Below are positions 15,451-32,400 of a stretch of 32,541 bases of DNA, one piece after another. The stretch is from Syntrophaceae bacterium (GTDB lineage: Bacteria; Desulfobacterota; Syntrophia; Syntrophales; Smithellaceae). The stretch lies in the NCBI GenBank assembly GCA_003139775.1, contig PLGI01000092.1, positions 1 to 32,541 on the forward strand. The letters are read 5' to 3'. The position numbers and the translations under genes were made by a program. Numbering within the stretch: position 1 is the first letter of the stretch; each line of letters starts with the position of its first letter. The notes beneath the pieces are model-generated. The model had not been told where the DNA came from and did not search any database. It worked only from the letters and a program-made list of their open reading frames with translations.

Positions 15451-17298
15451 CTATTCCGCCATAATGGATGCGGCGATTTCCGGGATACCCAGACTCTCCA
15501 AACGCTTTTTCGAAGGCTTGCCGGTATCCTTGTTCCAGTCTCTGATGGCATAATACTCCGGTAGCATCTTCTCCATATTGGGTACATGACCTTCCTGTCC
15601 ACCCTCTGGAATAGGCCTAATAGCCAGTTCCGGCAAGACATCGTCTTTCGCGGTAATTCCAAGCTTGCAGGACAGTGACCTCTGCATTTGAAAGGTACGT
15701 TCCCCCGCCTTCAATAATTCATCCATAGTTGTGTTCCAGCCTGTAGATGCATTAATCATATCGATAAGTATACTGAAGGGTATCCCGGCAAAATGACAGA
15801 TTCCCATTGAGTCAGTCATATTTCTGAAATTCTGCCCTTTAACAACACCGGGAGCTTTATTATCGTCCCAGCGGTCAGTGATTTCTATATCAACGTCAGG
15901 ATGACCTGTTCCAAGGTCGACCTGATAGGCGTCATTTTTATTGTGATCCGCTCCACGCGGAGCGGTCGCATAAACAAGACCCATGGAATGATAAGCTCGC
16001 GGATCGTGCATGGGGAATTCCAGCCCTTTGCATTGGACGGCTTCTCCAGGCGGGCGGCCGTATTTTTTTGCCATCCTCTTGGTTCCCCCCGCCAGAACAG
16101 CGCCAAAGCCTTGATTTTTAGCAATCTTATGAACCAACTCAACGGCCGCATCGGTATTGCCCCAGGTCAGTTTCAGCCCTTCTGTATCTTTCTCTGTAAT
16201 GACTCCGAGACTATACAAGTAGAAAGCATAGGCGGCGCTGGCACCGCTGCTGATCGTATCAAATCCATAAGCGTTGCATAATTCGTTAAAATATACGGCA
16301 TCGGACATATCGACATCCAAACCCATCAATGCACCCCAGGCGATTAAGGTTTCATATTCAGGTCCTTCGACCCGGTCATATAAATGCTTACCTTCTTTGA
16401 TCTGGAGAACTTTGCGGCAGCGTATCGGACAGCCATAACAGGCGGTGCTGTCCGTCTGATATTTTTCCAACTGTTCAGCTCCGCTTATTTTAGCCTGTGG
16501 AGGAAAAGACGGTGCGGTATAATAATTGGCCGGACTGTCCCCGAAGGCAATGGCTCCATCAACCCATCCGGCTGTACCGCTTTGGTGCCAGAGTATGGTC
16601 ATGAAACTTTCTTTAACCTCGGTCATGGCTAGGCGTGCAGCTTCTCGGAATCTTTCCGGATCAGCCATGGGCAGCTTCATCTTGCCGCGCACCGCAATCG
16701 CCTTAACCTTCTTTGAGCCCATAACGCAGCCCAATCCCGCCCGACCGAGGCAGTGGCCATACTCAGACATAATATTACCGTAGGGAACAAGATTCTCGGA
16801 AGCGACACCGATACAGGCAACCTGGACGCGTTTATCTCCATATTCATTTTTAATTTCTTCCTGTGTCTTGACGGTGTCTTTCCCCCACAAATGACTGGCA
16901 TCCTTAATCTCTGCCTTGCCGTCCTTAATGTAAATGTAAACGGGCTTGGCGGATATGCCTTTGAGGATGATACCGTCATAGCCGGCATTTTTGAGTTCCG
17001 CTCCGAACCATGATCCGGCATTCGCATCTCCATAATACCCGGTGTAGGGAGATTTTGTGGCGCCGCCCCAGCGACTGACGCTGGGGCCGCTCGTGCCATT
17101 GAGGAGACCAGTCATAAGGATAAGAGGGTTATCCGGTCCCAATGGATCGGTTTTCTCATCAACCATGTCGAAGAGGTAGCGCGCGGCCAAACCGGTGCTG
17201 CCGATAAAATCGCGTGCGTATTTTTCATTCAGCGGCTCATCCTGAAGCGTTCCCTTTGTAAGATCGGCAATGAGTAGTTTGCCCTGATATCCGTTCAT
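15451..17298 (-). CDS. aor: Tungsten-containing aldehyde:ferredoxin oxidoreductase
   Basis: A 615-aa enzyme of the AOR family, which interconverts carboxylates and aldehydes with ferredoxin as the electron carrier, using a tungsten bis-pterin and a [4Fe-4S] cluster. The N-terminal domain (MNGYQGKLL, then TGLLNGTSGPSVSRWGGATK with the pterin-binding region) is intact. Cluster cysteines are seen as CYGCPIRC (C-x2-C-x3-C near residue 285) and a fourth in GICHFAG near residue 498. Length matches the family. GGAGG is six bases upstream of the ATG. The neighbouring alcohol dehydrogenase, MoaD and ThiF genes suggest an acid/aldehyde/alcohol module. The actual substrate (benzoate, fatty acid, acetate) cannot be read from the sequence. 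Confidence 0.92.
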   Translation of the reverse strand: MNGYQGKLLIADLTKGTLQDEPLNEKYARDFIGSTGLAARYLFDMVDEKTDPLGPDNPLILMTGLLNGTSGPSVSRWGGATKSPYTGYYGDANAGSWFGAELKNAGYDGIILKGISAKPVYIYIKDGKAEIKDASHLWGKDTVKTQEEIKNEYGDKRVQVACIGVASENLVPYGNIMSEYGHCLGRAGLGCVMGSKKVKAIAVRGKMKLPMADPERFREAARLAMTEVKESFMTILWHQSGTAGWVDGAIAFGDSPANYYTAPSFPPQAKISGAEQLEKYQTDSTACYGCPIRCRKVLQIKEGKHLYDRVEGPEYETLIAWGALMGLDVDMSDAVYFNELCNAYGFDTISSGASAAYAFYLYSLGVITEKDTEGLKLTWGNTDAAVELVHKIAKNQGFGAVLAGGTKRMAKKYGRPPGEAVQCKGLEFPMHDPRAYHSMGLVYATAPRGADHNKNDAYQVDLGTGHPDVDIEITDRWDDNKAPGVVKGQNFRNMTDSMGICHFAGIPFSILIDMINASTGWNTTMDELLKAGERTFQMQRSLSCKLGITAKDDVLPELAIRPIPEGGQEGHVPNMEKMLPEYYAIRDWNKDTGKPSKKRLESLGIPEIAASIMAE

Positions 17299-21476: not shown

Positions 21477-22538
21477 TTACCTTTTAACCTGCCGGTGACC
21501 GATGCTGTAATTTATGGTCCTGCCGATAGACTGAAAATCTTTTTTCAGACGGCTGATAATTTCCACTGCCGAGCCGACATCTTTCCTGCCGGGATAAATA
21601 TCATAGCGGGTTTTATAAATTTCAGGAGTGAAGTCCGGCATGACAACGTTGGCTCCGGCCTGCAGTGCTTGAAGCCGTCCCTGTGGATGAAGAGTTGCCA
21701 GAGCGGTAGTTGCCGGAATGTTAGTGTTGCTGGTGATCAGGCGCGCGAGCGCTAAGACACGCAGAGTCAGTTCGATGTCGTCATTATCTATTCCGGCAAG
21801 AGGTGTGTCGGGATGGGCGATGAATGGGCCGATTCCCAGCATATCGGCATCCAGATATTTCATCACCAACAGATCATCGGCCAATATCTCCGGTGTCTGA
21901 CCCGGCAGGCCCACCATGTTTCCCGTTCCGGTTTCAAAACCAAGTTCCTTCAACCGGCGCAGACATTGCAGGCGTTTTTCCCACTCACAGCCGGGGCGCA
22001 GATAGCGATAAAGCTCAAGCGATGCCGTTTCGTGTTTTAATAAATAGCGGTTGGCTCCCGCTTGCTGAAATGCTTTATAATCATTTAACGCGCGCTCGCC
22101 GATGGATAAGGTGATGATTAAATCTGTTTCTTTCCGGATTCGTTCGATCAGGCGGCAGATGATATCCTGTGAGTAAAAAGAATCTTCACCGGATTGCAGC
22201 ACCACCGTAGAGACGCCTGTTTTTTTGATTTGTTCCGCAGTGGCGATTATTTCATCTTCGGACATCCGGTAGCGGCTGAGGCTGGCATTGCCTTTGCGCA
22301 GGCCGCAATAAAGGCAATTGCGTTCGCAGTGATTGGAAAATTCGATAATGCCGCGCAGAAATATTTCATCGCCGACTTGCTCTTTTCTCACCTTATCGGC
22401 GGCACTAAAAAGCTCAGGTGAGTACTTAGCCGGAAGGGAGAGCAATTGGATAATTTCTTTGCGGTTTAAATCCTTACCCTCTTGAGCTTTGCCGATCAGA
22501 TTTTCCGGGGATTTAGATATAGACATCTCTTGCGCCAT
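21477..22538 (-). CDS. hydE: [FeFe]-hydrogenase maturase HydE (radical SAM)
   Basis: A 353-aa radical-SAM enzyme acting in assembly of the H-cluster of [FeFe] hydrogenase; it is thought to process the Fe(CO)2(CN)-cysteine complex made by HydG. The SAM-cluster motif is C71-x3-C75-x2-C78 (HCERNCLYCG). Further family features are ISK-like N-terminal helices, VLQSGED, and the C-terminal TALATLHPQGRLQALQAGAN. The gene overlaps the 3' end of hydG by 26 bases; an alternative ATG at 22526 would reduce this to 14. A broken copy of codons 197-302 is at 13121-13443. No hydF or hydrogenase subunit gene is in the window. Confidence 0.93.
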   Translation of the reverse strand: MAQEMSISKSPENLIGKAQEGKDLNRKEIIQLLSLPAKYSPELFSAADKVRKEQVGDEIFLRGIIEFSNHCERNCLYCGLRKGNASLSRYRMSEDEIIATAEQIKKTGVSTVVLQSGEDSFYSQDIICRLIERIRKETDLIITLSIGERALNDYKAFQQAGANRYLLKHETASLELYRYLRPGCEWEKRLQCLRRLKELGFETGTGNMVGLPGQTPEILADDLLVMKYLDADMLGIGPFIAHPDTPLAGIDNDDIELTLRVLALARLITSNTNIPATTALATLHPQGRLQALQAGANVVMPDFTPEIYKTRYDIYPGRKDVGSAVEIISRLKKDFQSIGRTINYSIGHRQVKR

Positions 22539-23910
22539 CCTCTATTTTTTGCAGCCGGTCGCAAACCATTTTTTTTCTTTTTGTTTTGAATTTTTCATCC
22601 AGAATTTTTTGAATTAATTTCTCTCCGGCTTCGCGTGTTGCGGTACTTGCGTAATCGAACAGATACTCTTTAAAAGAGAAAAGGGCGTTGGACTGACAGA
22701 ACTTCTGAATCAGACCCGGTTTGGCCAGATCCATAAAATCCTTGCCCGTGCGTCCCAGCCGGTAGCAGGCCGTGCAAAAGCTGGGGATATGCCCGTGTTC
22801 GGTAATATCCAGAATGACTTCATCAAGCGTGCGCGTATCGCCGAGATTAAACTGTGCGGCGCGGAAAGCGTCGCTGGAATCTTCCTGATAGCCGCCGGGG
22901 TTGGTGCGCGAACCGGCGCTGATCTGGGATATACCCAAAGCGAAAACTTCAGAGCGTAAGGAGGGATTTTCTCTAGTGCTTAAAATCATTCCAGTGTAAG
23001 GAACGGCCATGCGGATGATGGCGACCAGTTTCTTAAAATCATGATCGCTGACGGGATGAGGAGGTTTGATGGCCGCCGGCGCGTTGAATGCCGGTTCCAG
23101 CCTGGGAACGGACATAGTGTGCGGTCCCACGCCGCAGTCCTGCTCCAGTTGCAGAGCATGAAAAAGCAGCCCTAAAACTTCAAATTTATAATCGTAAAGA
23201 CCAAACAACGCGCCGATGCCGACATCGTTAATACCGCCTTCCTGCGCGCGATGCATCGCGGTGAGTCGTTTGGCGTAATCCTTCTTGGGACCGGAGGGAT
23301 GCATCACCTTGTATGTTTCATGATGGTAAGTTTCCTGAAATAAAACAACAGTGCCGATGCCTGTTTTCTTCAACTGCTTATATTCATCCACTTCCAGTGG
23401 TGCGATTTCCACGTTGATCCGCCTTATTTCTCCTCCATGTTCCGTTTTTACGGAATATGCCGTTTCAATGGCTTCCATGAAATATTCCAGGCTGGAGCGG
23501 CTGGGATGTTCACCACAGAGCATCAGCAGGCGCTTATGACCTTCCCGTTCCAGAACCTGCACTTCTTTAGCGATTTGATCCATCGTCAGAGCGACTCGGT
23601 TGAGTTCCATATTATCACGCCTGAATCCGCAATACAGACAATTATTGGCGCAGAGATTGGCAACATAAAGAGGCGCGAACAAAACAAGGCGGTTGCCGTA
23701 AATATCCTCTTTGATTTTGTGGGCTGCCTGCCAGATCAGGGCGATGAGCTCGTCATCCTCAGTCTGAAGAAGTACAGCAACTTCTTCCGGCGTGAGACCT
23801 TTGAGTTCCTCGGCTTTGGCTATAATTTCCCGGACTCTTTCGGGAGCGGGATTTTTTGCTTTGTCCAATATGTTTTCAATTTTTGTATCGTCGATAAAAT
23901 CTTTAATCAT
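22513..23910 (-). CDS. hydG: [FeFe]-hydrogenase maturase HydG (tyrosine lyase)
   Basis: A 465-aa radical-SAM enzyme that cleaves tyrosine to make the CO and CN ligands of the H-cluster. The SAM cluster is C87-x3-C91-x2-C94 (CANNCLYCGFRRDN), and the C-terminal auxiliary cluster has the exact HydG spacing: CTAC, 22 residues, then C. I place the start at 23910, where AAGGA lies eight bases upstream. The longer frame from 23934 begins inside the 3' hairpin of the intergenic element. The gene is translationally coupled to hydE and preceded by the TM1266-like gene. Confidence 0.94.
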   Translation of the reverse strand: MIKDFIDDTKIENILDKAKNPAPERVREIIAKAEELKGLTPEEVAVLLQTEDDELIALIWQAAHKIKEDIYGNRLVLFAPLYVANLCANNCLYCGFRRDNMELNRVALTMDQIAKEVQVLEREGHKRLLMLCGEHPSRSSLEYFMEAIETAYSVKTEHGGEIRRINVEIAPLEVDEYKQLKKTGIGTVVLFQETYHHETYKVMHPSGPKKDYAKRLTAMHRAQEGGINDVGIGALFGLYDYKFEVLGLLFHALQLEQDCGVGPHTMSVPRLEPAFNAPAAIKPPHPVSDHDFKKLVAIIRMAVPYTGMILSTRENPSLRSEVFALGISQISAGSRTNPGGYQEDSSDAFRAAQFNLGDTRTLDEVILDITEHGHIPSFCTACYRLGRTGKDFMDLAKPGLIQKFCQSNALFSFKEYLFDYASTATREAGEKLIQKILDEKFKTKRKKMVCDRLQKIEDGARDVYI

Positions 23911-23928
23911 TTGAATAATCCTTATCAT

Positions 23929-24009
23929 GGGCATAATGCCCTCCGCTATGCGGGATAATTCGACTTACAAATTTCAGTTCACTTCATTTCTGAAATTTGA
24001 GTCTCATTA
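23929..24009 (-). repeat. Dispersed structured element, copy between TM1266-like gene and hydG
   Basis: Read on the minus strand, it starts at the TAA stop of the upstream gene (TAATGAGACTC), forms a first stem around CAGAAATGAAGTGAACTG, then GTCGAATTATCC, GCGGA, and ends with the hairpin GGGCATTATGCCC (23929-23941). It fills the whole gap up to the ribosome-binding site of hydG. Its last 38 bases differ from the copy at 29820-29857 at six positions, two of which (T-A to C-G) preserve a base pair. Confidence 0.75.
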
Positions 24010-24255
24010 TGCTTTCGTCAGAGCTGATTTAACCTGAATGCCTTTGAGCGCTCCCAATTTTCCAGTCAGGGCGCCGATTTGATCCGTGGAGGCATGCACA
24101 ATAAGCGCAATTATATGCAGATGCTTGGCGGAGTAGGGAATACCCATCCGGCCGATAATGACATTGCCAAATTCACTTAAAATCGCATTAACATTTTCGG
24201 CCTGACTGGTTCTGTTTGTTATAATAATAGTGATCGTACCGATACGTTTGTCCAT
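24007..24255 (-). CDS. TM1266-family iron-only hydrogenase system regulator
   Basis: An 82-aa protein beginning MDKRIGTITIIITNR, with an ACT-like/NikR-C-like ferredoxin fold: strand, helix (QAENVNAILSEF), strand with IIGRMGIPYSAKHLHIIALIVHA, helix, and a last strand ending at the C-terminus. TM1266-like proteins are typically encoded beside hydE/hydG/hydF and are proposed regulators of the hydrogenase system. The start at 24255 follows GGAG; the longer frame to 24342 reads through the upstream repeat and is not believable. It is the first gene of the TM1266-hydG-hydE transcription unit. Confidence 0.85.
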   Translation of the reverse strand: MDKRIGTITIIITNRTSQAENVNAILSEFGNVIIGRMGIPYSAKHLHIIALIVHASTDQIGALTGKLGALKGIQVKSALTKA

Positions 24256-24272
24256 ATTTTTCTCCATATCAC

Positions 24273-24380
24273 GGGCGTTCCGCCCTCCGCTGTGCAGGAT
24301 GGTTTCCAATAGCCTTTGGCTATTGGATAATTCGACCAGCAAGCCTCAGTGCGCTTCGTTTCTGACGCTTGGGTCTCATT
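24273..24380 (-). repeat. Dispersed structured element, copy before the TM1266-like gene
   Basis: On the minus strand: TAATGAGACCC, stem CAAGCGTCAG/CTGAGGCTTG (24340-24371 region, one mismatch), GTCGAATTATCC, an extra perfect 9-bp hairpin (24306-24326) not present in other copies, GCGGA, and final hairpin GGGCG-GAA-CGCCC (24273-24285). The final hairpin differs in sequence from the other copies but keeps every base pair. It ends just before the GGAG site of the TM1266-like gene. Confidence 0.75.
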
Positions 24381-24420
24381 AAAAAAAAGAGGTTTGACCA
24401 GGAAAAATCAAACCTCTTTT
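24381..24420 (-). terminator. Strong intrinsic terminator upstream of the hyd genes
   Basis: A perfect 13-bp inverted repeat (24385-24397 and 24408-24420, AAAAGAGGTTTGA and its complement) with a 10-base loop. On the minus strand it is followed by eight T residues (24388-24381), part of which pair in the stem. It lies between a candidate promoter (24492-24521) and the first gene of the hyd unit, so it looks like an attenuator. On the plus strand it would be weaker and points toward larC. Confidence 0.75.
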
Positions 24421-24491
24421 GCTTAAGATTTTATGTTCCCCTCAAGATCAGAAAGTTACCCTCCCTCTCAGGCCAATTATTCTTTGAAATT

Positions 24492-24521
24492 AGACTATCC
24501 TGAAAAACATCATTTTGTCAA
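24492..24521 (-). promoter_or_regulatory. Candidate promoter of the hyd leader
   Basis: On the minus strand TTGACA (plus 24516-24521) is followed after 17-18 bases by a weak -10 (ATAGTC/TAGTCT, 24492-24498). A transcript from here would run about 100 nt before the terminator at 24381-24420. The leader contains the purine-rich stretch CCTGAGAGGGAGGGTAAC, which I cannot match to a known riboswitch class. Confidence 0.4.
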
Positions 24522-24611
24522 TTCGATTTTTTATTATATAAAGAAAATGGGCTTGACTTCAATGATAGTTTCGACCATATTTCCTGTGAATATGGCGAAA
24601 GGAATTAGCTG

Positions 24612-25826
24612 ATGAAAATATTATACTATGATTGTTTTGCCGGAATCAGCGGCGATATGAATCTGGGTGCGATGCTTGATCTGGGAGTTGATCAAAAATA
24701 TTTATTGAAAGAACTCGGCAACCTGTCCATAGATTCTTATAAAATAAAAGTTTATAAAGGTAGGCGCGCTGGCATTACCGGTACAAAAATTGATGTGATT
24801 ATTCCATCTCAGAAAAAGGCTTCTTCAAGTCACGTCCTGAAGAAACGGACTTTCCGGGATATTTCAAAATTGATCAAGCAAAGCAATTTATCCGCTAACG
24901 TCAAAAAAATCAGCCTTGATATTTTTACCCGCCTTGCCCGGGCGGAAGGAAAAATCCACGGACATAAAATTGAAGACGTGCACTTCCATGAAGTTGGTGC
25001 GATAGATTCGATTGTCGACATAGTCGGTGCGGCAATTTGTCTGGACTATTTAGAAGTCGACAAAGTTATCTCGTCACCCATCCAGGTCGGTTCCGGCATC
25101 ATCCATTGCAGTCATGGCACATTCCCTGTGCCGGCGCCAGCTACGGCGGAAATTCTTCAGGACATTCCCATTAAAACCGGTCTTGTCCCTTTTGAGGCGA
25201 CAACTCCCACGGGAGCGGCGATCATTGCCGCGACAGCAGCATACTTTACAGAAAGAATTGATTTCACACCACAGAAAACCGGTTATGGCTTGGGCAGTAA
25301 AGATTCATCTACACCAAATGTCCTGCGTATATTTTTGGGCGAGATATCCGCTAATACTGAAAAAGCGGATGATCAGGAAACAGGCGTTGCGGTCATTATC
25401 GAATGCAATATTGATGATATGAATCCGGAACTCTATGACGCACTGATGGAGCGTCTTTTTGCCGCTGGCGCGCATGATGTATTCCTCACGCCAATCATTA
25501 TGAAAAAATCCCGTCCGGCTGTAATGATATCTGTGCTTTGTGATGTTGGAAAACAAAAAGCGATTGAAGAGATTTTATGGCTGAATTCTTCCACCTTCGG
25601 CCTGCGTTCTTACAAAGTTGCCAAGTCCATGCTGCGGCGGGAAACGGTAAAAGTAAAAACCAAGTATGGCGAAATAACGGTAAAAAGTGGCTACTTAAAC
25701 GAACGCATAATTAAGTCCAAGCCGGAATATGAAGATTGCAAGAGACTGGCAAAAGAAAATGGTGTTACCATTCAAGATATTTATGAAAGTATTCGCCTGA
25801 CTAAAAGGAAAAAAAATGAACACTGA
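24612..25826 (+). CDS. larC: Nickel-pincer cofactor cyclometallase LarC
   Basis: A 404-aa protein of the LarC (formerly DUF111) family, which inserts nickel into the dithio-nucleotide precursor in a CTP-dependent step. The family start MKILYYDCFAGISGDM, the segment HFHEVGAIDSIVDIVGA, and GTFPVPAPAT are all present, and the C-terminal part has NIDDMNPELYD and PRPAVMIS-like metal-binding-domain sequence (KKSRPAVMIS). LarC is one uninterrupted frame, unlike the frameshifted larC1/larC2 of Lactobacillus plantarum. AAAGGA is eight bases upstream of ATG. It overlaps larB by 11 bases. Confidence 0.93.
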   Translation: MKILYYDCFAGISGDMNLGAMLDLGVDQKYLLKELGNLSIDSYKIKVYKGRRAGITGTKIDVIIPSQKKASSSHVLKKRTFRDISKLIKQSNLSANVKKISLDIFTRLARAEGKIHGHKIEDVHFHEVGAIDSIVDIVGAAICLDYLEVDKVISSPIQVGSGIIHCSHGTFPVPAPATAEILQDIPIKTGLVPFEATTPTGAAIIAATAAYFTERIDFTPQKTGYGLGSKDSSTPNVLRIFLGEISANTEKADDQETGVAVIIECNIDDMNPELYDALMERLFAAGAHDVFLTPIIMKKSRPAVMISVLCDVGKQKAIEEILWLNSSTFGLRSYKVAKSMLRRETVKVKTKYGEITVKSGYLNERIIKSKPEYEDCKRLAKENGVTIQDIYESIRLTKRKKNEH

Positions 25827-26565
25827 CGCATTAAAGGTTCTTCTGGAAAATATCCGCGACGGGAAAATCGATGTCGAAGCCGGCATCTCTAAGTTGAGAA
25901 ATTTATCTTATGTTGATTTGGGTTGCGCCAAACTCGATACACACCGCGAGTTGCGCGTCGGTTATCCGGAGGTGATCTTCTGCCCGGGCAAAACCACTGA
26001 GCAGATAAAAACTATTATACAGGCCATGATGGACGGAGATGCCAACATTCTTGCCACACGCGCGAGCTTTGAAGTTTTTGCCGCAGTCAAAGAAGTTTGT
26101 CCTGCTGCTTTGTATCATCCTCTTGCCCGGACAATTACGTTAACAAGAAAAAAACTTCCTCTGTCCGAAAATTACATCGCCGTAGTCACAGCGGGAACAT
26201 CAGATTTGCCCGTTGCCGAAGAGGCAGCCGTTACTGCCGAAATTTTCGGTAATCGCGTGGAAAGAATTGTCGACGTCGGTGTGGCCGGCGTTCATCGCTT
26301 ATTTGACCAGCTGGATTTGATCCGTGGAGCGCGCGTAATTGTTGTGGTTGCCGGAATGGAGGGCGCTTTACCCAGCGTTGTCGGTGGTCTTGTGGATAAA
26401 CCAATCATCGCGGTGCCTACTTCTGTTGGCTATGGCGCAAGCTTCCAGGGAGTGGCTGCTTTGCTGGCGATGCTGAACAGTTGCGCAGGCGGCGTATCGG
26501 TTGTGAACATCGACAATGGTTTTGGCGCAGGCTACATAGCCAGCATGATCAATAAACTGAAATAA
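25816..26565 (+). CDS. larB: Nickel-pincer cofactor carboxylase LarB
   Basis: A 249-aa protein that carboxylates and hydrolyses nicotinic acid adenine dinucleotide at the first step of the nickel-pincer nucleotide pathway. The C-terminal half is PurE-like: TAGTSDLPVAEEAAVTAE, GMEGALPSVVGGLVDKPIIA, and the end NSCAGGVSVVNIDNGFGAG. C223 is probably the conserved cysteine that captures the nicotinamide ring in LarB. Its start overlaps larC and has AAAGGA nearby, so the two are translationally coupled. It ends 15 bases from larE, which faces it. Confidence 0.93.
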   Translation: MNTDALKVLLENIRDGKIDVEAGISKLRNLSYVDLGCAKLDTHRELRVGYPEVIFCPGKTTEQIKTIIQAMMDGDANILATRASFEVFAAVKEVCPAALYHPLARTITLTRKKLPLSENYIAVVTAGTSDLPVAEEAAVTAEIFGNRVERIVDVGVAGVHRLFDQLDLIRGARVIVVVAGMEGALPSVVGGLVDKPIIAVPTSVGYGASFQGVAALLAMLNSCAGGVSVVNIDNGFGAGYIASMINKLK

Positions 26566-26580
26566 ATACAGGGCATCATT

Positions 26581-27408
26581 TCATTTAAGAATATTTTGTT
26601 TTGTGTCGATCACTTCGTTCATGCTGCCGGTGCGGTAACCTTTCAGGTCTAAAGAAGTATACGCAAAACCAATTTCCTGGAATTGTTTATATACATTGTC
26701 CATCAGTTCCAGATCAAAAAATTTGAGCCGTTCTTTTCCAGCCACTTCAATCCGCGCTGTATCACCATGATGGCGCACACGTACCTGTTTGAAGCCCAAA
26801 TCAAGCAGAAATTGCTCAGCCCTGTCCACCATTGCCAGTTTCTCTTGTGTTATTTTCTCACCGTAAGGAAAGCGCGAAGCCAGACAGGCAAAAGATTGTT
26901 TATCCCATGTGGGCAATCCCATCTGTTTTGATAATTTTCTGATGGCATCTTTTCCTAATCCGATATCTTTAAGCGGGCTGATAATCCCCAGTTCTTTGAT
27001 TGCCTGCATTCCGGGACGATAATCACCAAGGTCATCGATGTTTGATCCTTCGGCAATGTATTTAATATTGTATTTTTGAGCGACTTCCTTAATTTTGGAA
27101 AATAATTCGTATTTGCACAAATAACATCGATTAGGCGGATTAGCGGTAAACCCTTCAATATCCAATTCCTCTGATTGAATAATAATATGCTTAATCCCGG
27201 CGCCATGGGTAAATTCTGCTGCATCGTTGAGCTCTCTTTCCGGATAAGTTGAAGATCGCGCCGTTACAGCAATGACTTGGTCTTTTAAGACATCATGAGC
27301 AATCTTCAAGAGAAACGTGCTATCCACGCCTCCTGAATAAGCCACGGCCAAAGAACCCATTTTTTTGATATGACACTGAAGCTGTTTTAATGTATTCTGA
27401 ATTTCCAT
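26581..27408 (-). CDS. larE: Sulfur transferase LarE, three-cysteine type
   Basis: A 275-aa PP-loop ATPase that adds sulfur to the carboxylated nicotinate nucleotide. The PP-loop is SGGVDS (25-30). C175 (SFACLASR) matches the single sulfur-donor cysteine of the L. plantarum enzyme, and an added CxxC (C95, C98, RCYLCK) is present. LarE proteins with these three cysteines bind a [4Fe-4S] cluster and are thought to use it for sulfur transfer instead of sacrificing their own cysteine. I begin it at MEIQN (27408), the usual family start, though a longer frame to 27441 exists. No ribosome-binding site is visible, and a TATAAT lies just upstream, so the mRNA may be nearly leaderless. It converges on larB. 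Confidence 0.9.
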   Translation of the reverse strand: MEIQNTLKQLQCHIKKMGSLAVAYSGGVDSTFLLKIAHDVLKDQVIAVTARSSTYPERELNDAAEFTHGAGIKHIIIQSEELDIEGFTANPPNRCYLCKYELFSKIKEVAQKYNIKYIAEGSNIDDLGDYRPGMQAIKELGIISPLKDIGLGKDAIRKLSKQMGLPTWDKQSFACLASRFPYGEKITQEKLAMVDRAEQFLLDLGFKQVRVRHHGDTARIEVAGKERLKFFDLELMDNVYKQFQEIGFAYTSLDLKGYRTGSMNEVIDTKQNILK

Positions 27409-27530
27409 AAGTATGATTATATAACACAAATAAAAACTCAATGCAGTTGAATTTATTTAAGCGGTAATCAGCCGCAACTATGCAAAGATATAAATTTTTA
27501 TCTTATTAAATATTTTTTCCAACACAATAT

Positions 27531-27654: not shown

Positions 27655-28803
27655 ATGAACAGAAGAGAGTTCTTGAAGGCTGGTTTGGTAGGAACTACAG
27701 CAACTTTAATCGGGACGAGTGATCTTGCCCACGCATTGCAATATGCAGCAGCGGCGCCTTTCGTCTTTCCCACACCTGTTTATAGAACCCTTGGCCGTAC
27801 AGGCCTGAAGATTACGGTCGTAAGTTTCGGGGCGATGCTGACACCGGAGGCGGAAGTGATGGAAGTTGCCTTTGATCACGGTATCAATTACGTCGATACG
27901 GCGCGCAAATATATGGGTGGCAAGAACGAGGAAATTGTCGGTAAGGCGTTAAAAGGCAGACGCGATCGCGTTTATCTCGCAACGAAAATTCAGCCTGCTT
28001 CGGTATCCAAAGCGGCCATTTTCAAGGATGTGGAAACGAGCCTGAAAACACTGGAAACGGATTATATAGATGTCATCCAACTGCACCACCTTACCGACAG
28101 CGTCAGGATTTTTGATCCGGAGATCAGGGAAGCTTTGGTGAAACTAAAAGAGCAGGGAAAGGTGCGTTTCTTCGGGGTGACCACGCACACAAATCAGGTG
28201 CAGGTGCTCAATGCCCTAATGGAAGATAAAGACCGTTTTTTTGATACGGCTCTTGTAGGCTATAATTTCAAGAGTGATAACGATTTGAAGGAAGCTATAG
28301 CGAAAGCCGCACAAAAAAAAATCGGCATCATTGCGATGAAAACTCAAGCCGGTGGTTATGTAACGGATGCACTGGGCCCGATCAGTCCTCACCGGGCGGC
28401 ACTCAAATGGGTGCTTCAGGATAAGAATGTCACAGCGGCAATCCCCGGCATGAGGGATATGACTGAGCTTAGAGAAGATGTCGGCGTGATGGGTCTAAAA
28501 TTAAGCTATTTCGACGAGCTTGTTCTGCAGCGCTATGGCGCTGCCGTAAGTCCATACTACTGTCACTTCTGCGGGAAGTGCGAATCTACCTGCCCCAATG
28601 GTGTAGCAATCAGCACGATCAACCGGTGCATCATGTATGCGGAGGCATACAGGAGCATGGAGCTTTCCCGTGCTACCTATAGAGAAGTTCCAGCGATTGC
28701 TTCAGCCTCCGTATGTCTGGACTGTCAGACTTGTGTGGCAAGGTGTGTCAATCGTCTTGATATTCCCGCGAAGATGGCACGGGCCAGAAAAATATTGGCT
28801 TAG
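27655..28803 (+). CDS. Tat-exported aldo/keto reductase with two [4Fe-4S] clusters
   Basis: A 382-aa protein. It begins with a twin-arginine signal (NRREFLKAG, then a moderately hydrophobic stretch to about residue 30), so it should be folded with cofactors before export. The aldo/keto reductase barrel keeps the catalytic tetrad D81, Y86, K111 and H144, and ends with a typical NADP-fold helix region (AIPGMRDMTELRED). The C-terminal extension has two ferredoxin-type motifs: CHFCGKCESTCPNG and CLDCQTCVARC, each C-x2-C-x2-C-x3-C. Periplasmic NADPH is not available, so the active site probably works with iron-sulfur electrons or has another role. AAAGGAG precedes ATG. It is the first gene of a four-gene cluster. 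Confidence 0.88.
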   Translation: MNRREFLKAGLVGTTATLIGTSDLAHALQYAAAAPFVFPTPVYRTLGRTGLKITVVSFGAMLTPEAEVMEVAFDHGINYVDTARKYMGGKNEEIVGKALKGRRDRVYLATKIQPASVSKAAIFKDVETSLKTLETDYIDVIQLHHLTDSVRIFDPEIREALVKLKEQGKVRFFGVTTHTNQVQVLNALMEDKDRFFDTALVGYNFKSDNDLKEAIAKAAQKKIGIIAMKTQAGGYVTDALGPISPHRAALKWVLQDKNVTAAIPGMRDMTELREDVGVMGLKLSYFDELVLQRYGAAVSPYYCHFCGKCESTCPNGVAISTINRCIMYAEAYRSMELSRATYREVPAIASASVCLDCQTCVARCVNRLDIPAKMARARKILA

Positions 28804-28810
28804 GAGAAAT

Positions 28811-29746
28811 ATGCACAAAAATTCTCATACCAGGCCGTTTTTTCTTTTTATTTTTTTAATAATAATCTTGGCTTTGTCGAATCCGGTCCATGCTGCCGGC
28901 CTTTCCATCAAAGATGTTCTTCCCGGAAAAAGCTTTACCAAGGACTGGGTAATTGAGGAAAGAGTAAAGATTTACGACAAAGATACCCTGTTCGATCATA
29001 TCGATGGAGAAGCCGAACTCTATTTCCCTTATGGGTTTGACGCTATGGCCACAGCAAGTTATGTAAATAAGCAGAACCCGGATTTATCCCTTGTCGCTGA
29101 TGTTTACAGAATGGCCTCTGTGCTTGATGCTTTTGGAATTTACTCCAACTACCGCAAGACAAATAATTTGTGGGTTGCGATTGGCGCCGAGGGATTTGTG
29201 TCTTCTTCCCAATTGATGTTCTATCAGGACAGATATTTTGTTCGGCTGCAAGTCGCAGGAGCAACGAGTCTCGAAAAGGATATATTCCTGGCCTGCGCCC
29301 GGGCTATTTCCGGAAACCTCCCGGCAGGTGCAGGTCAGCCCAAAGAGCTGGAGATTTTGAAGATTCCGGCGCTTGTGCCGAAGAGCGAACGGTATCTTGC
29401 GCAGAGCCTTCTGGGGTATGTCTTCTTTCGCAAGGGTATTATAGCTGATGCCGCAGCGCAAAACGAAAAGATGCAGATTTTTGTAATACACGAGGATACG
29501 CAAGCCGCTGCCCGCAAGACTTTTGATCAATACCATTCTTATCTTAAGGCAGAAGGGCAGGGCATTCAAATGACCGGGAATCCGGCCCGCATGCAAGTAA
29601 TCGCCGTCGACCCTTTGTATGGCGGAGTGTTAGTAGAGCAGTCGGGACGCTATGTCATCGGTGCAGTCAGGGTTAAAAATACATCTGTGGCCAAGCAGCT
29701 TATCGATGAGTTGTGCGGGCGGATCAGTGCAGACGCGGGCGGTTGA
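28811..29746 (+). CDS. Exported DUF6599-like protein
   Basis: A 311-aa protein with a long N-terminal signal peptide (hydrophobic FFLFIFLIIILALS, cleavage likely after VHA). The mature part has DTLFDHIDGEAELYFPYGF, the kind of motif shared by DUF6599 proteins (D..Y.YI.GGAELY..YGF), and a C-terminal half with VGAVRVKN. I start it at 28811 with TAGGAG seven bases upstream and the previous stop seven bases away; the longer frame at 28637 is inside the reductase gene. The function is unknown. Position in the cluster suggests a periplasmic partner of the reductase or the polyferredoxin. Confidence 0.78.
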   Translation: MHKNSHTRPFFLFIFLIIILALSNPVHAAGLSIKDVLPGKSFTKDWVIEERVKIYDKDTLFDHIDGEAELYFPYGFDAMATASYVNKQNPDLSLVADVYRMASVLDAFGIYSNYRKTNNLWVAIGAEGFVSSSQLMFYQDRYFVRLQVAGATSLEKDIFLACARAISGNLPAGAGQPKELEILKIPALVPKSERYLAQSLLGYVFFRKGIIADAAAQNEKMQIFVIHEDTQAAARKTFDQYHSYLKAEGQGIQMTGNPARMQVIAVDPLYGGVLVEQSGRYVIGAVRVKNTSVAKQLIDELCGRISADAGG

Positions 29747-29758
29747 TACAAGAGTTAT

Positions 29759-29857
29759 AAGTGAAACTACAATTTCGAAAGCGTAGCGTATAACCTAAAG
29801 GTCACACGTCGGAATTGCTAAGTTGAACTATCCCGCAAAGCGGAGGGTATCATACCC
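29759..29857 (+). repeat. Dispersed structured element, copy before the DUF362 gene
   Basis: It begins GTGAAACTACAATTTCGAAA, continues to AAGTTGAACTATCCCGC, GCGGA, and ends in the hairpin GGGTATCATACCC (29845-29857). The last 38 bases match the copy at 23929-24009 at 32 positions, including paired changes in the hairpin. It lies in the 188-base gap between DUF6599 and DUF362 genes and is oriented with their transcription. Confidence 0.75.
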
Positions 29858-29934
29858 AGCAGATTGCTTTTGGGTTCATACCCGTTATCAATTTCAAGTA
29901 ATGAATTATTACCAATAGTTTTAGTAGGTGTTCA

Positions 29935-30837
29935 ATGGATCGCAGGGATTTTCTTAAAACCACTATTGTCACAGGTATTACCTTAGCCATACCGGGTAAC
30001 GCAAGTTTATTTATCAAAGCGCTGGAGGCTGCCGAGAAGACAGACCTCGTTGTCGCTCACGGTCTAAAACCTGCCGGGATAACAAAAGCGGCCATCGATG
30101 GCTTGGGTGGCATCAGGGCTTTCATATCCAGGGGAGACATTGTTGTCGTTAAACCGAATATCGGATGGGACAGACTGCCCGAATATGCGGCAACTACGAA
30201 TCCGGAAGTAGTTTCTACCGTGGTTGCTTTGTGTTACGAGGCGGGGGCAAAGCAGGTCAAGGTTTTTGATCATAGTGTCGTAGATCCGCGGCGGTGCTAT
30301 AAGCAAAGCGGCATTTCCGCGGCAGCCACTGCTGTCGGCGGCATTGTCAGCTATATAGATGATAGAAAATTCCGTGACGTAAAATTATCCGGTGTTGCCT
30401 TGAAATCATGGCCTCTTTATACCGAAGCTATTGAAGCGGACAAGTTTATTAATATTCCCATTGCCAAGACCCATGGCCTTTCCACTCTTACCCTGGGGAT
30501 GAAAAACCTGATGGGAATCATGGGCAGTTCTCGGGGAAGGATACACCAGCGCATTGATGGCTCTCTGGTGGATATCGCCATAGCCGTCAAACCCACGCTG
30601 ATTATCCTTGATGCGGTGCGCATCCTGACTGCAAATGGACCGCAGGGAGGAGACCTTGCTGATGTCAAGCAGTTCAATACGGTTGTTGCAGGCAGGGATC
30701 AGGTGGCCGTCGATGCTTTTGGCGCCACACTCTTCGGTTTGAAAGGGGCAGCCTTAGGCTATGTCGTGGCAGGACACAAAGCGGGACTGGGCACCATGGA
30801 TTTCTCTAAATTGAAAATTAAAAAAATAAATGTATGA
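29935..30837 (+). CDS. Tat-exported DUF362 protein
   Basis: A 300-aa protein with a twin-arginine signal (MDRRDFLKTTIVTG) and a single DUF362 domain: VKPNIGWD, TTNPEVVSTVVALCYEAGAKQVKVFDH, ADKFINIPIAKTHGLSTLTLGMKNLMGIMG and VAGRDQVAVDAFGATLFG. DUF362 proteins often carry extra ferredoxin clusters; none is seen here. The Tat signal implies a folded, perhaps metal-bearing, protein. The function of DUF362 is unknown; the conserved K-T-H-x5-TLGMKN stretch is probably its active site. AGGTG precedes ATG. It is separated from the next gene by 12 bases. Confidence 0.88.
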   Translation: MDRRDFLKTTIVTGITLAIPGNASLFIKALEAAEKTDLVVAHGLKPAGITKAAIDGLGGIRAFISRGDIVVVKPNIGWDRLPEYAATTNPEVVSTVVALCYEAGAKQVKVFDHSVVDPRRCYKQSGISAAATAVGGIVSYIDDRKFRDVKLSGVALKSWPLYTEAIEADKFINIPIAKTHGLSTLTLGMKNLMGIMGSSRGRIHQRIDGSLVDIAIAVKPTLIILDAVRILTANGPQGGDLADVKQFNTVVAGRDQVAVDAFGATLFGLKGAALGYVVAGHKAGLGTMDFSKLKIKKINV

Positions 30838-30849
30838 TAGAGCTTTCAT

Positions 30850-32400
30850 ATGATCAGAAAAATTCGCATAGTCACGCAGGGATTATTTTTGCTGACGTTT
30901 TTGTGGCTCTTTCTGCAGACTGAATCCAAGGGAGCTGATGAACTCGGCTATCCTGTTAAAATATTTTTAGATGCTGATCCTCTGATTTTCATCACCACAA
31001 TCCTTTCCAGCCGCGCGTGGCAGCAAACATTTCTCCTGGCCATTTTGGTGATCATTGCTACTATAGTTCTGGGGCGTGTTTTCTGCGGCTGGGTATGTCC
31101 TATGGGAACGCTTAATAACATGGTTGGCGCTTTGCAAAAGAAACATTCCTCAAGAGCCCCGCAAAACTTACATTGGTTGAAATATTGCATCCTGATTTTT
31201 CTGATTACTATGTCACTTTTTTCCTTGCAGTTCACCGGCATTCTTGACCCTATTTCACTTCTGATTCGTTCATTTTCGTTGTCTGTTTATCCGCTAATCG
31301 TCTATGCAACAAAGGCCACATTTGACTTGTTCTATAATTTGAATATTCCTTTTCTGGTTAATATTTCCGAATCCATCTACACGCTTTTTAAAAAAATCTG
31401 GCTTCCCTTCCAGCAGCCATTTTTTCTTCAAAGCGTTTTTCTGGGGCTATTGTTCTTCATCATTCTGAGCCTGAATCTTCTGGAGAAACGTTTCTGGTGT
31501 AAATATCTCTGTCCTCTGGGAGCCCTTCTGGGGCTGTTCTCCCACTTTGCATTTCTTCAACGGTCGGTAAGCGAAGGCTGCAATTCCTGCGGAGCCTGTG
31601 ATTTTGCCTGTCAGGGGGGCGCCTCTCCTGATCAAAAAGAAAAATGGCATAATACGGAATGTATGGCTTGTATGAACTGCGATGATCTCTGTCCGCAAAA
31701 TGCCGTCGGGTTCGGATTTTTTAAGAAGACGCAGACAGCTTCCGTTGACCTCGGTAAAAGAAGAATCATTGGCACGATCCTGTCCGGCCTGATCGCTGTC
31801 CCACTGATGAGGATTACAGCGATCAACAAACAGGCGGCCGCAGCGGAGCCTAAATTAATCCGGCCGCCGGGTTCTCTTGATGAAAAACAATTTCTGGCCA
31901 GATGTGTAAAATGCGGCGAATGCATGAAGGTTTGTATTACCAATGGTCTCCAGCCGACATTACTGGAGGCCGGACTTGAGGGGATCTGGTCACCCGTACT
32001 TATTCCGCGCATCGGCTATTGTGAATATCGCTGCACACTCTGTGGCCAGGTCTGCCCGACAGGTGCGATAAAGAGATTGGAATTGCCGGAAAAAGAAAAA
32101 GTAAAAATAGGTCTGGCTATGATTGATAAGGGCAGATGCCTGCCCTATGCCCATGCCACGCCTTGCATTGTTTGCCAGGAGGTTTGTCCTACTCCGAAGA
32201 AAGCAATCTGGCTGGAAAAGGCAAAAGTGATGAACAGAAACGAGAGTGTCATGACCTTAAATCAACCACACGTTGATCTGGAGCTATGCATTGGCTGCGG
32301 GCTCTGTGAGGCAAAATGCCCCATTCTTGGTCAGCCGGCGATTTATGTTACCAGTATTGGGGAATCGCGATCCAAGGAAAATCAATTATTGCTGTCATAA
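30850..32400 (+). CDS. Fused NapH/NapG-like polyferredoxin, membrane-bound
   Basis: A 516-aa protein. The N-terminal half is NapH-like: about five membrane helices, the two CxxxCP motifs (C79-C83 and C217-C221), then two ferredoxin motifs (244-254 and 271-281). At residues 302-320 a second twin-arginine-like segment (GKRRIIGTILSGLIAVPLM) starts a NapG-like part with at least three or four more cluster motifs (352-362, 391-402, 439-446, 480-490). In separate-gene systems NapH and NapG carry electrons from quinol or a flavoprotein to periplasmic reductases. Here both are one chain. It most likely serves the exported reductase and DUF362 protein upstream, but the partner is not proven. Confidence 0.85.
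   Translation: MIRKIRIVTQGLFLLTFLWLFLQTESKGADELGYPVKIFLDADPLIFITTILSSRAWQQTFLLAILVIIATIVLGRVFCGWVCPMGTLNNMVGALQKKHSSRAPQNLHWLKYCILIFLITMSLFSLQFTGILDPISLLIRSFSLSVYPLIVYATKATFDLFYNLNIPFLVNISESIYTLFKKIWLPFQQPFFLQSVFLGLLFFIILSLNLLEKRFWCKYLCPLGALLGLFSHFAFLQRSVSEGCNSCGACDFACQGGASPDQKEKWHNTECMACMNCDDLCPQNAVGFGFFKKTQTASVDLGKRRIIGTILSGLIAVPLMRITAINKQAAAAEPKLIRPPGSLDEKQFLARCVKCGECMKVCITNGLQPTLLEAGLEGIWSPVLIPRIGYCEYRCTLCGQVCPTGAIKRLELPEKEKVKIGLAMIDKGRCLPYAHATPCIVCQEVCPTPKKAIWLEKAKVMNRNESVMTLNQPHVDLELCIGCGLCEAKCPILGQPAIYVTSIGESRSKENQLLLS

Follow-up and report, generated by a model that had tools for sequence, protein, structure and literature searches.

A recurring DUF6599-centred gene set with a LarA-like DUF362 protein: a candidate quinone-linked redox module of the bacterial envelope

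What do four adjacent genes for redox and envelope-type proteins do together at the right end of a Syntrophaceae contig? The contig (PLGI01000092.1, from the 3.4-Mb genome assembly GCA_003139775.1) was analysed over its entire length of 32,541 nucleotides, referred to below as the window. The genes encode an aldo/keto reductase (AKR) of the twin-arginine translocation (Tat) type, a DUF6599 protein, a Tat-type DUF362 protein and a NapH-NapG fusion polyferredoxin (NapHG). All four proteins can be assigned to families already known, and a NapH-NapG fusion has been described before. The reading that we favour, at a little short of an even chance, is a conserved quinone-linked envelope redox module in which a LarA-like subunit works with a hydride-type cofactor, either the nickel-pincer nucleotide (NPN) or a similar nucleotide. 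A preliminary description made from the DNA letters had reported four plus-strand genes with eight or more [4Fe-4S] motifs; all four frames are open, all match their own families, and the motifs add up to eight, the AKR contributing two and NapHG six.

DUF6599 (PF20244) was present in 80 of 297 genomes sampled from the window's phylum and in none of 14 control genomes. The sample held 113 DUF6599 places, of which 112, including the window, were analysed, the omitted one being below the cut-off. An AKR or DUF362 gene lay at most 1.2 kb from DUF6599 in 97 of the 112 loci; of the 88 loci flanked on both sides by 1.2 kb or more, 85 had such a neighbour. Eleven of the 15 loci with neither gene close by sit less than 1 kb from the end of their stretch, the exceptions being L064, L155, L207 and L214. 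Neighbour pairs within 1.2 kb shared a strand in 115 of 117 cases. Up to 4.5 kb from DUF6599, matches to AKR, DUF362 or NapHG had a density of 0.189 per kb, and farther out one of 0.009 per kb, a difference that excludes chance clustering. All three partners were found within 6 kb of DUF6599 at 23 loci; at 43 loci DUF362 was the only one of the three in that range.

The set also reaches beyond the phylum sample. A scan with the AKR alignment, taking one genome per species, gave 433 relatives, and DUF6599 stood at 44 of the best 80 of these, which were taken as named loci. Among the best 80, full sets were found at L084 (titled Nitrospirota), L111 (bacterium), L136 (Neomarinimicrobiota), L138 (Acidobacteriota) and L147 (Latescibacterota), and an AKR with DUF6599 was also present on contigs titled Bacteroidales, KSB1, Caldithrix and Myxococcales. 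The preliminary description had made its case depend on co-occurrence outside this genome, and such co-occurrence was found widely, on one strand and in several phyla. The four genes are a recurring set, not private to the window's genome.

The best structural model of the DUF362 protein resembled LarA. Compared with 11 entries titled lactate/malate racemase or LarA-like it gave Z scores of 15.7-18.4, and with the LarA-type entries together with Thermotoga maritima Q9WYS3 the range was 15.1-18.4, at 2.7-3.3 Å over 202-212 residues; the next-best structure after the LarA-type matches scored Z 5.5. Alignment by hhalign to a profile of 13 LarA sequences gave E 1e-5, and another set gave 5.9e-5. 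This alignment paired H180 with the LarA catalytic histidine and K190 with the NPN-tethering lysine, ten residues apart; the corresponding roles of His173, Lys183 and His199 in LarA-Ip are described in PMC12611868. Both residues were invariant in 20 aligned DUF362 proteins, and also in 30 of 30 loci from the Bacteroidales phylum. DUF362 and LarA are placed in one Pfam clan, CL0471, and DUF362 serves as a LarA outgroup (PMC11770544). By Pfam the protein matched PF04015 only, with no Lar_N (PF09861) match, and its sequence gave four matches in the PDB, none below E 1. It has two cysteines and no cluster motif. A Tat-like pattern was found in 58 of 70 DUF362 proteins, a count in which some of those without RR are genes outside the module. 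The modelled fold and the two matched positions suggest that DUF362 may work on the LarA plan, though it is not classed as LarA.

Table 1. Genes and spacing at the right end of the window
Feature	Coordinates	Strand	Features and matches
Aldo/keto reductase (AKR), Tat-type, 382 aa	27655..28803	+	PF00248 1.2e-38; two C-terminal [4Fe-4S] motifs; tetrad D81 Y86 K111 H144
DUF6599 protein, 311 aa	28811..29746	+	PF20244 1.9e-34; N-terminal signal/anchor, then two tandem domains
Gap between two tight gene pairs, 188 nt	29747..29934		spacing
DUF362 protein, Tat-type, 300 aa	29935..30837	+	PF04015 4.7e-51; predicted LarA N-terminal (NPN) domain fold; H180, K190
NapH-NapG fusion polyferredoxin (NapHG), 516 aa	30850..32400	+	NapG 1.8e-30, NapH 1.7e-26; six [4Fe-4S] motifs
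larC, larB (+) and larE (-), NPN cofactor biosynthesis	24612..27441		adjoins module in window

The NapG and NapH matches of NapHG were its best, and both fall under the NCBI cut-offs. Along the protein, two [4Fe-4S] motifs in the membrane part are followed by KRR, by the final hydrophobic segment (residues 306-324) and by four [4Fe-4S] motifs. The NapH membrane part has its two CxxxCP motifs in addition to the two for [4Fe-4S], and the NapG part its four [4Fe-4S] motifs and twin arginine. Five of the six motifs are regular and the other is C430/439/442/446; all 28 motif cysteines were invariant in 13 sequences. Of 27 NapHG proteins, 23 have RR ahead of the final membrane segment; the window has KRR. 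These features support a predicted membrane-to-periplasm Fe-S protein, and by analogy with NapGH it would be linked to quinone. A fused NapH-NapG of the delta proteobacterium MLMS-1, with Tat dependence seen through reporter fusions, is described in PMC5449189. NapGH and the MLMS-1 polyferredoxin resemble NapHG in their NapH-like membrane part, the twin arginine before the last membrane segment and four more [4Fe-4S] motifs (same source); unlike in NapGH, the partners here are DUF362, AKR and DUF6599.

In 18 aligned module AKRs the twin arginines, the tetrad D81/Y86/K111/H144 and C303/C306/C309/C364 were invariant. The two [4Fe-4S] motifs begin at C303 and C354, and four of their eight cysteines are universal; the others are lost in AKRs of the gene order DUF6599-DUF362-NapHG-AKR. 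Pattern scoring found a Tat-like start in 48 of 51 AKRs, and the Pfam TAT_signal match was sub-threshold (19.4 versus 22.7 bits); Tat export was judged from motifs and conservation only. The IPG...LRED loop, usual in nucleotide-binding AKRs, is retained in AKRs of the window type and changed in those of the order just given. The preliminary description had argued from the lack of NADPH outside the cytoplasm that the tetrad may work with electrons from the polyferredoxin. That lack would still allow a tightly bound nucleotide, which may be taken out through Tat together with the AKR. Glucose-fructose oxidoreductase is a precedent for export of a nucleotide with its protein via Tat; like the enzymes proposed here it is a Tat-exported oxidoreductase, and unlike the module it is of a different family, with no Fe-S cluster and no membrane partner.

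The DUF6599 protein scored 119.3 bits against PF20244, whose cut-off is 27. It begins with a hydrophobic segment (residues 10-28), and its AlphaFold model, built on 43 sequences, had a predicted local distance difference test (pLDDT) score of 92.8. Residues 31-173 resembled the PknH sensor 4esq (Z 14.5, 132 residues, 3.1 Å) and residues 176-310 resembled TM1622, 1vr8 (Z 13.1, 120 residues, 3.2 Å), in neither case with a Foldseek E below 1e-3. An enzyme of known family was considered and rejected, as there was no Foldseek match below 1e-3 and the best VIA matches were sensor- or lipoprotein-like domains. From the model the protein looks like two extracytoplasmic sensor-like domains with an anchor, and is most likely a binding or scaffold subunit. 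The earlier claim that all four proteins carry export signals or membrane helices agrees with the twin-arginine motifs of the AKR and DUF362, the membrane part of NapHG and, in DUF6599, an ordinary N-terminal hydrophobic segment in place of a Tat motif.

In the module that we propose, NapHG would connect the quinone pool to periplasmic Fe-S clusters by conducting electrons across the membrane. DUF362 and the AKR would be soluble enzymes that leave the cytoplasm through Tat already folded and cofactor-loaded and dock on NapHG, with DUF6599 as a binding or scaffold subunit. The DUF362 cofactor would exchange hydride with a hydroxy or carbonyl compound of the envelope, and electrons would pass singly to NapG. 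If the cofactor is NPN, it would be loaded in the cytoplasm and then go out through Tat. The earlier suggestion of an uncharacterised membrane-linked electron-transfer system gains from the recurring set, the conserved twin-arginine motifs and the Fe-S motifs of NapHG; it had missed the LarA fold, the sensor-like domains of DUF6599 and the published NapH-NapG fusion.

Is the nucleotide NPN? According to PMC11796402, about 15% of analysed genomes have larB, larC and larE homologues and no larA, and NPN-binding proteins there are likely but unidentified. The window genome (G000) has larB, larC and larE and no Lar_N match. LarA was scored as present at E <1e-8, and the p values below ignore relatedness except in the test by family. 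Among LarA-less genomes of the window's phylum, DUF362 was present in 98 of 108 with larC versus 6 of 22 without (p 2e-9), and five of these six are less than 90% complete. By family the figures were 49 of 54 versus 4 of 8 (p 0.012), with six genomes of unlisted family excluded. In the Bacteroidales phylum DUF362 was found in 11 of 13 larC genomes versus 14 of 135 without larC (p 2e-8). Four of the 13 larC loci in that sample (L280-L283) have DUF362 beside larC. L281 is an operon DUF362-NapH-NapG-larC-larE-larB with gaps of at most 15 nt and each gene confirmed by family models; L282 and L283 have DUF362-larC-larE-larB; in L280 a NapHG-DUF362 pair is divergent from larC-larE-larB, and the same genome also holds an AKR-DUF6599 pair (L132). 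The L281, L282 and L283 genomes gave no Lar_N match, and that of L280 a partial one. Of 20 named AKR-DUF6599 genomes, hand-picked from the 44, larC was present in 16, including all five of those with full sets, L136 by a partial match. A bolder possibility, in our view somewhat doubtful, is that the missing NPN users are the exported DUF362 proteins that pair with NapGH, with NPN acting as an organometallic hydride carrier to the quinone pool in a respiratory counterpart of LarA.

Several observations weigh against the module as proposed, and above all against NPN as its cofactor. The complete set stands at just 23 of the 112 loci, and in the open-licence literature we found no paper and no experiment on it, nor any literature on DUF6599 or on periplasmic aldo-keto reductases. 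The best DUF362 model has a pLDDT of 82, was built on seven sequences and is one of five that span 82 to 50. DUF362 shares with the LarA racemase superfamily the N-domain fold and the positions of the catalytic histidine and NPN-tethering lysine, in a genome with larB, larC and larE; unlike LarA it lacks the Lar_N match, has a Tat-type signal and a NapHG partner, and is without the C-terminal substrate domain, its 300 residues aligning only up to about residue 286 of LarA-type chains. The second catalytic histidine (His108 of LarA-Lp) seems variable, with H113 in the window and some relatives and other residues in many. The candidate for the nickel-ligand histidine, H204, lies 14 and not 16 residues after K190 and was left unpaired by hhalign. 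In L281 the DUF362 protein starts with RK, not RR.

The distribution of larC is also against NPN in places. Fourteen Bacteroidales-phylum genomes have DUF362 without larC or LarE over the cut-off; H180 and K190 are kept in their aligned loci and NapHG still adjoins DUF362 in 11 of the 14, so NPN cannot be required by every DUF362-NapHG pair unless it is supplied from elsewhere. Within the window's phylum larC was about as common in genomes with DUF6599 (71 of 80) as in those without it (181 of 217; p 0.28), and nine of the 80 DUF6599 genomes have no larC; larC as a marker of the module within the phylum was rejected for want of association. DUF362 does not track larC in LarA-bearing genomes either (138 of 144 versus 23 of 23), and it was near larC in none of 20 larC loci of that phylum, hand-picked from the 108 LarA-less larC genomes. 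In the 14 control genomes DUF362 and larC occurred together in four, DUF362 alone in one and larC alone in two, a weak overlap (p 0.09). For these reasons we hold the NPN assignment to be somewhat doubtful. Nor do the adjoining lar genes speak for joint function with the module. A block HydE-HydG-small protein-larC-larB-larE occupies window positions 21477-27441, and the same-genus genome G030 has the HydE-HydG-larC-larB-larE block without the module (HydG 89%, LarB 82% identity), so that larC, larB and larE beside the module are here a genus arrangement; in G130 the contig ends after larB.

The same quinone-linked module might instead operate without NPN, DUF362 binding another nucleotide or docking structurally and the AKR being the sole catalyst, with tightly bound NADP(H) carried out by Tat and recycled by the Fe-S clusters. 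The persistence of DUF362-NapHG pairs in 11 genomes without larC and LarE fits this, as do the tetrad, unchanged in all 18 aligned AKRs, and the IPG...LRED loop of the window-type AKR. That loop is missing, however, from AKRs of the order DUF6599-DUF362-NapHG-AKR, the histidine and lysine of DUF362 are invariant, and the 43 of 112 DUF6599 loci with DUF362 only show that the AKR is not always the partner. We consider this version unlikely, though a serious contender.

Further from the favoured module is a role in envelope maintenance resembling that of MsrPQ, in which NapHG would hand electrons to DUF362 and the AKR for the repair or maturation of damaged envelope molecules or of metal sites, not for the respiration of a substrate. 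The wide, patchy distribution (80 of 297 genomes) agrees with such a role, and no neighbour cluster was found in more than 16 of 79 loci, which means that there is no constant catabolic gene. PMC5449189 treats MsrPQ together with polyferredoxins, as dual-targeted systems that are split or fused; MsrPQ, an envelope methionine sulfoxide reductase, shares with the module a Tat-exported enzyme fed from the respiratory chain through a membrane partner, and differs in its molybdenum and heme from the Fe-S, AKR and LarA-fold parts here. No repair or stress partner was identified among the neighbours, whose clusters are mostly unannotated and so speak weakly either way, and we regard maintenance as improbable. 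That unrelated genes simply lie side by side with no joint function is very improbable indeed: pairs are commoner than the full set, and the two sampled genomes of the same genus and three of the same family lack DUF6599, but the neighbourhood counts (97 of 112 conserved, 115 of 117 on the same strand, in several phyla) already contradict it. The divergence of the four proteins was moreover correlated across 22 loci (Spearman 0.84-0.90, confounded by species history).

If the favoured module does use NPN, this cofactor, known from racemases and epimerases, would also serve respiratory electron transfer to the quinone pool. A family that combines the LarA fold and the tethering lysine, and that in L281 shares an operon with larC, larE, larB and NapGH-type polyferredoxin genes, makes the puzzle of the NPN users testable, and offers a lead on where NPN goes in bacteria that make it without the known user LarA. 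The module would likewise offer an initial idea of function for DUF362 and DUF6599, Pfam families without an assigned function, and for Tat-type AKRs. The latter are possibly part of the same cofactor world as NPN. At L291 (3-944, 1662-4544 and 4671-5621) two AKRs with signal-like starts (RRNFLKK and KRSTFLKK) flank larC-larE-larB; this locus could tie exported AKRs to NPN synthesis a second time. Its genome (G435) gave no DUF362 or Lar_N match.

Within the window, spacing divides the four genes into two close pairs: AKR and DUF6599 are 7 nt apart, DUF362 and NapHG 12 nt. The start of DUF6599 is the ATG at 28811, 7 nt past the AKR stop; a longer open frame from 28637 was rejected, being merely the same frame running back into the AKR gene. 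A promoter and terminator scan gave no excess over shuffled sequence. Clustering of the neighbours at 79 loci, after removal of the duplicates L076, L077, L095 and L098, revealed no constant fifth gene, the commonest cluster occurring in 16 loci at scattered positions.

Some further arrangements were seen. DUF362-NapHG pairs without larC and LarE are those of L250-L253, L255, L256, L258, L259, L261, L264 and L265. Six DUF362 genomes without larC (G347, G351, G367, G378, G409 and G440) gave weak matches to part of Lar_N in a frame of about 425-440 residues. A Lar_N protein (E <1e-8) with no LarC match was present in 23 genomes of the window's phylum, for example G067, G229, G250, G271 and G291, several of them near complete. 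L277, from the Bacteroidales phylum, has a further module arrangement, AKR-DUF362-DUF362-DUF6599 on one strand. An aldehyde ferredoxin oxidoreductase-like cluster occurred in 9 of the 79 loci, in none of the nine on the module strand. These genes are encoded on the strand opposite to DUF6599, two or three genes away, for example at L066 (800-2542), and the window has such a gene on the minus strand at 15451-17298 (NF007354, E 2.8e-65, below its cut-off).

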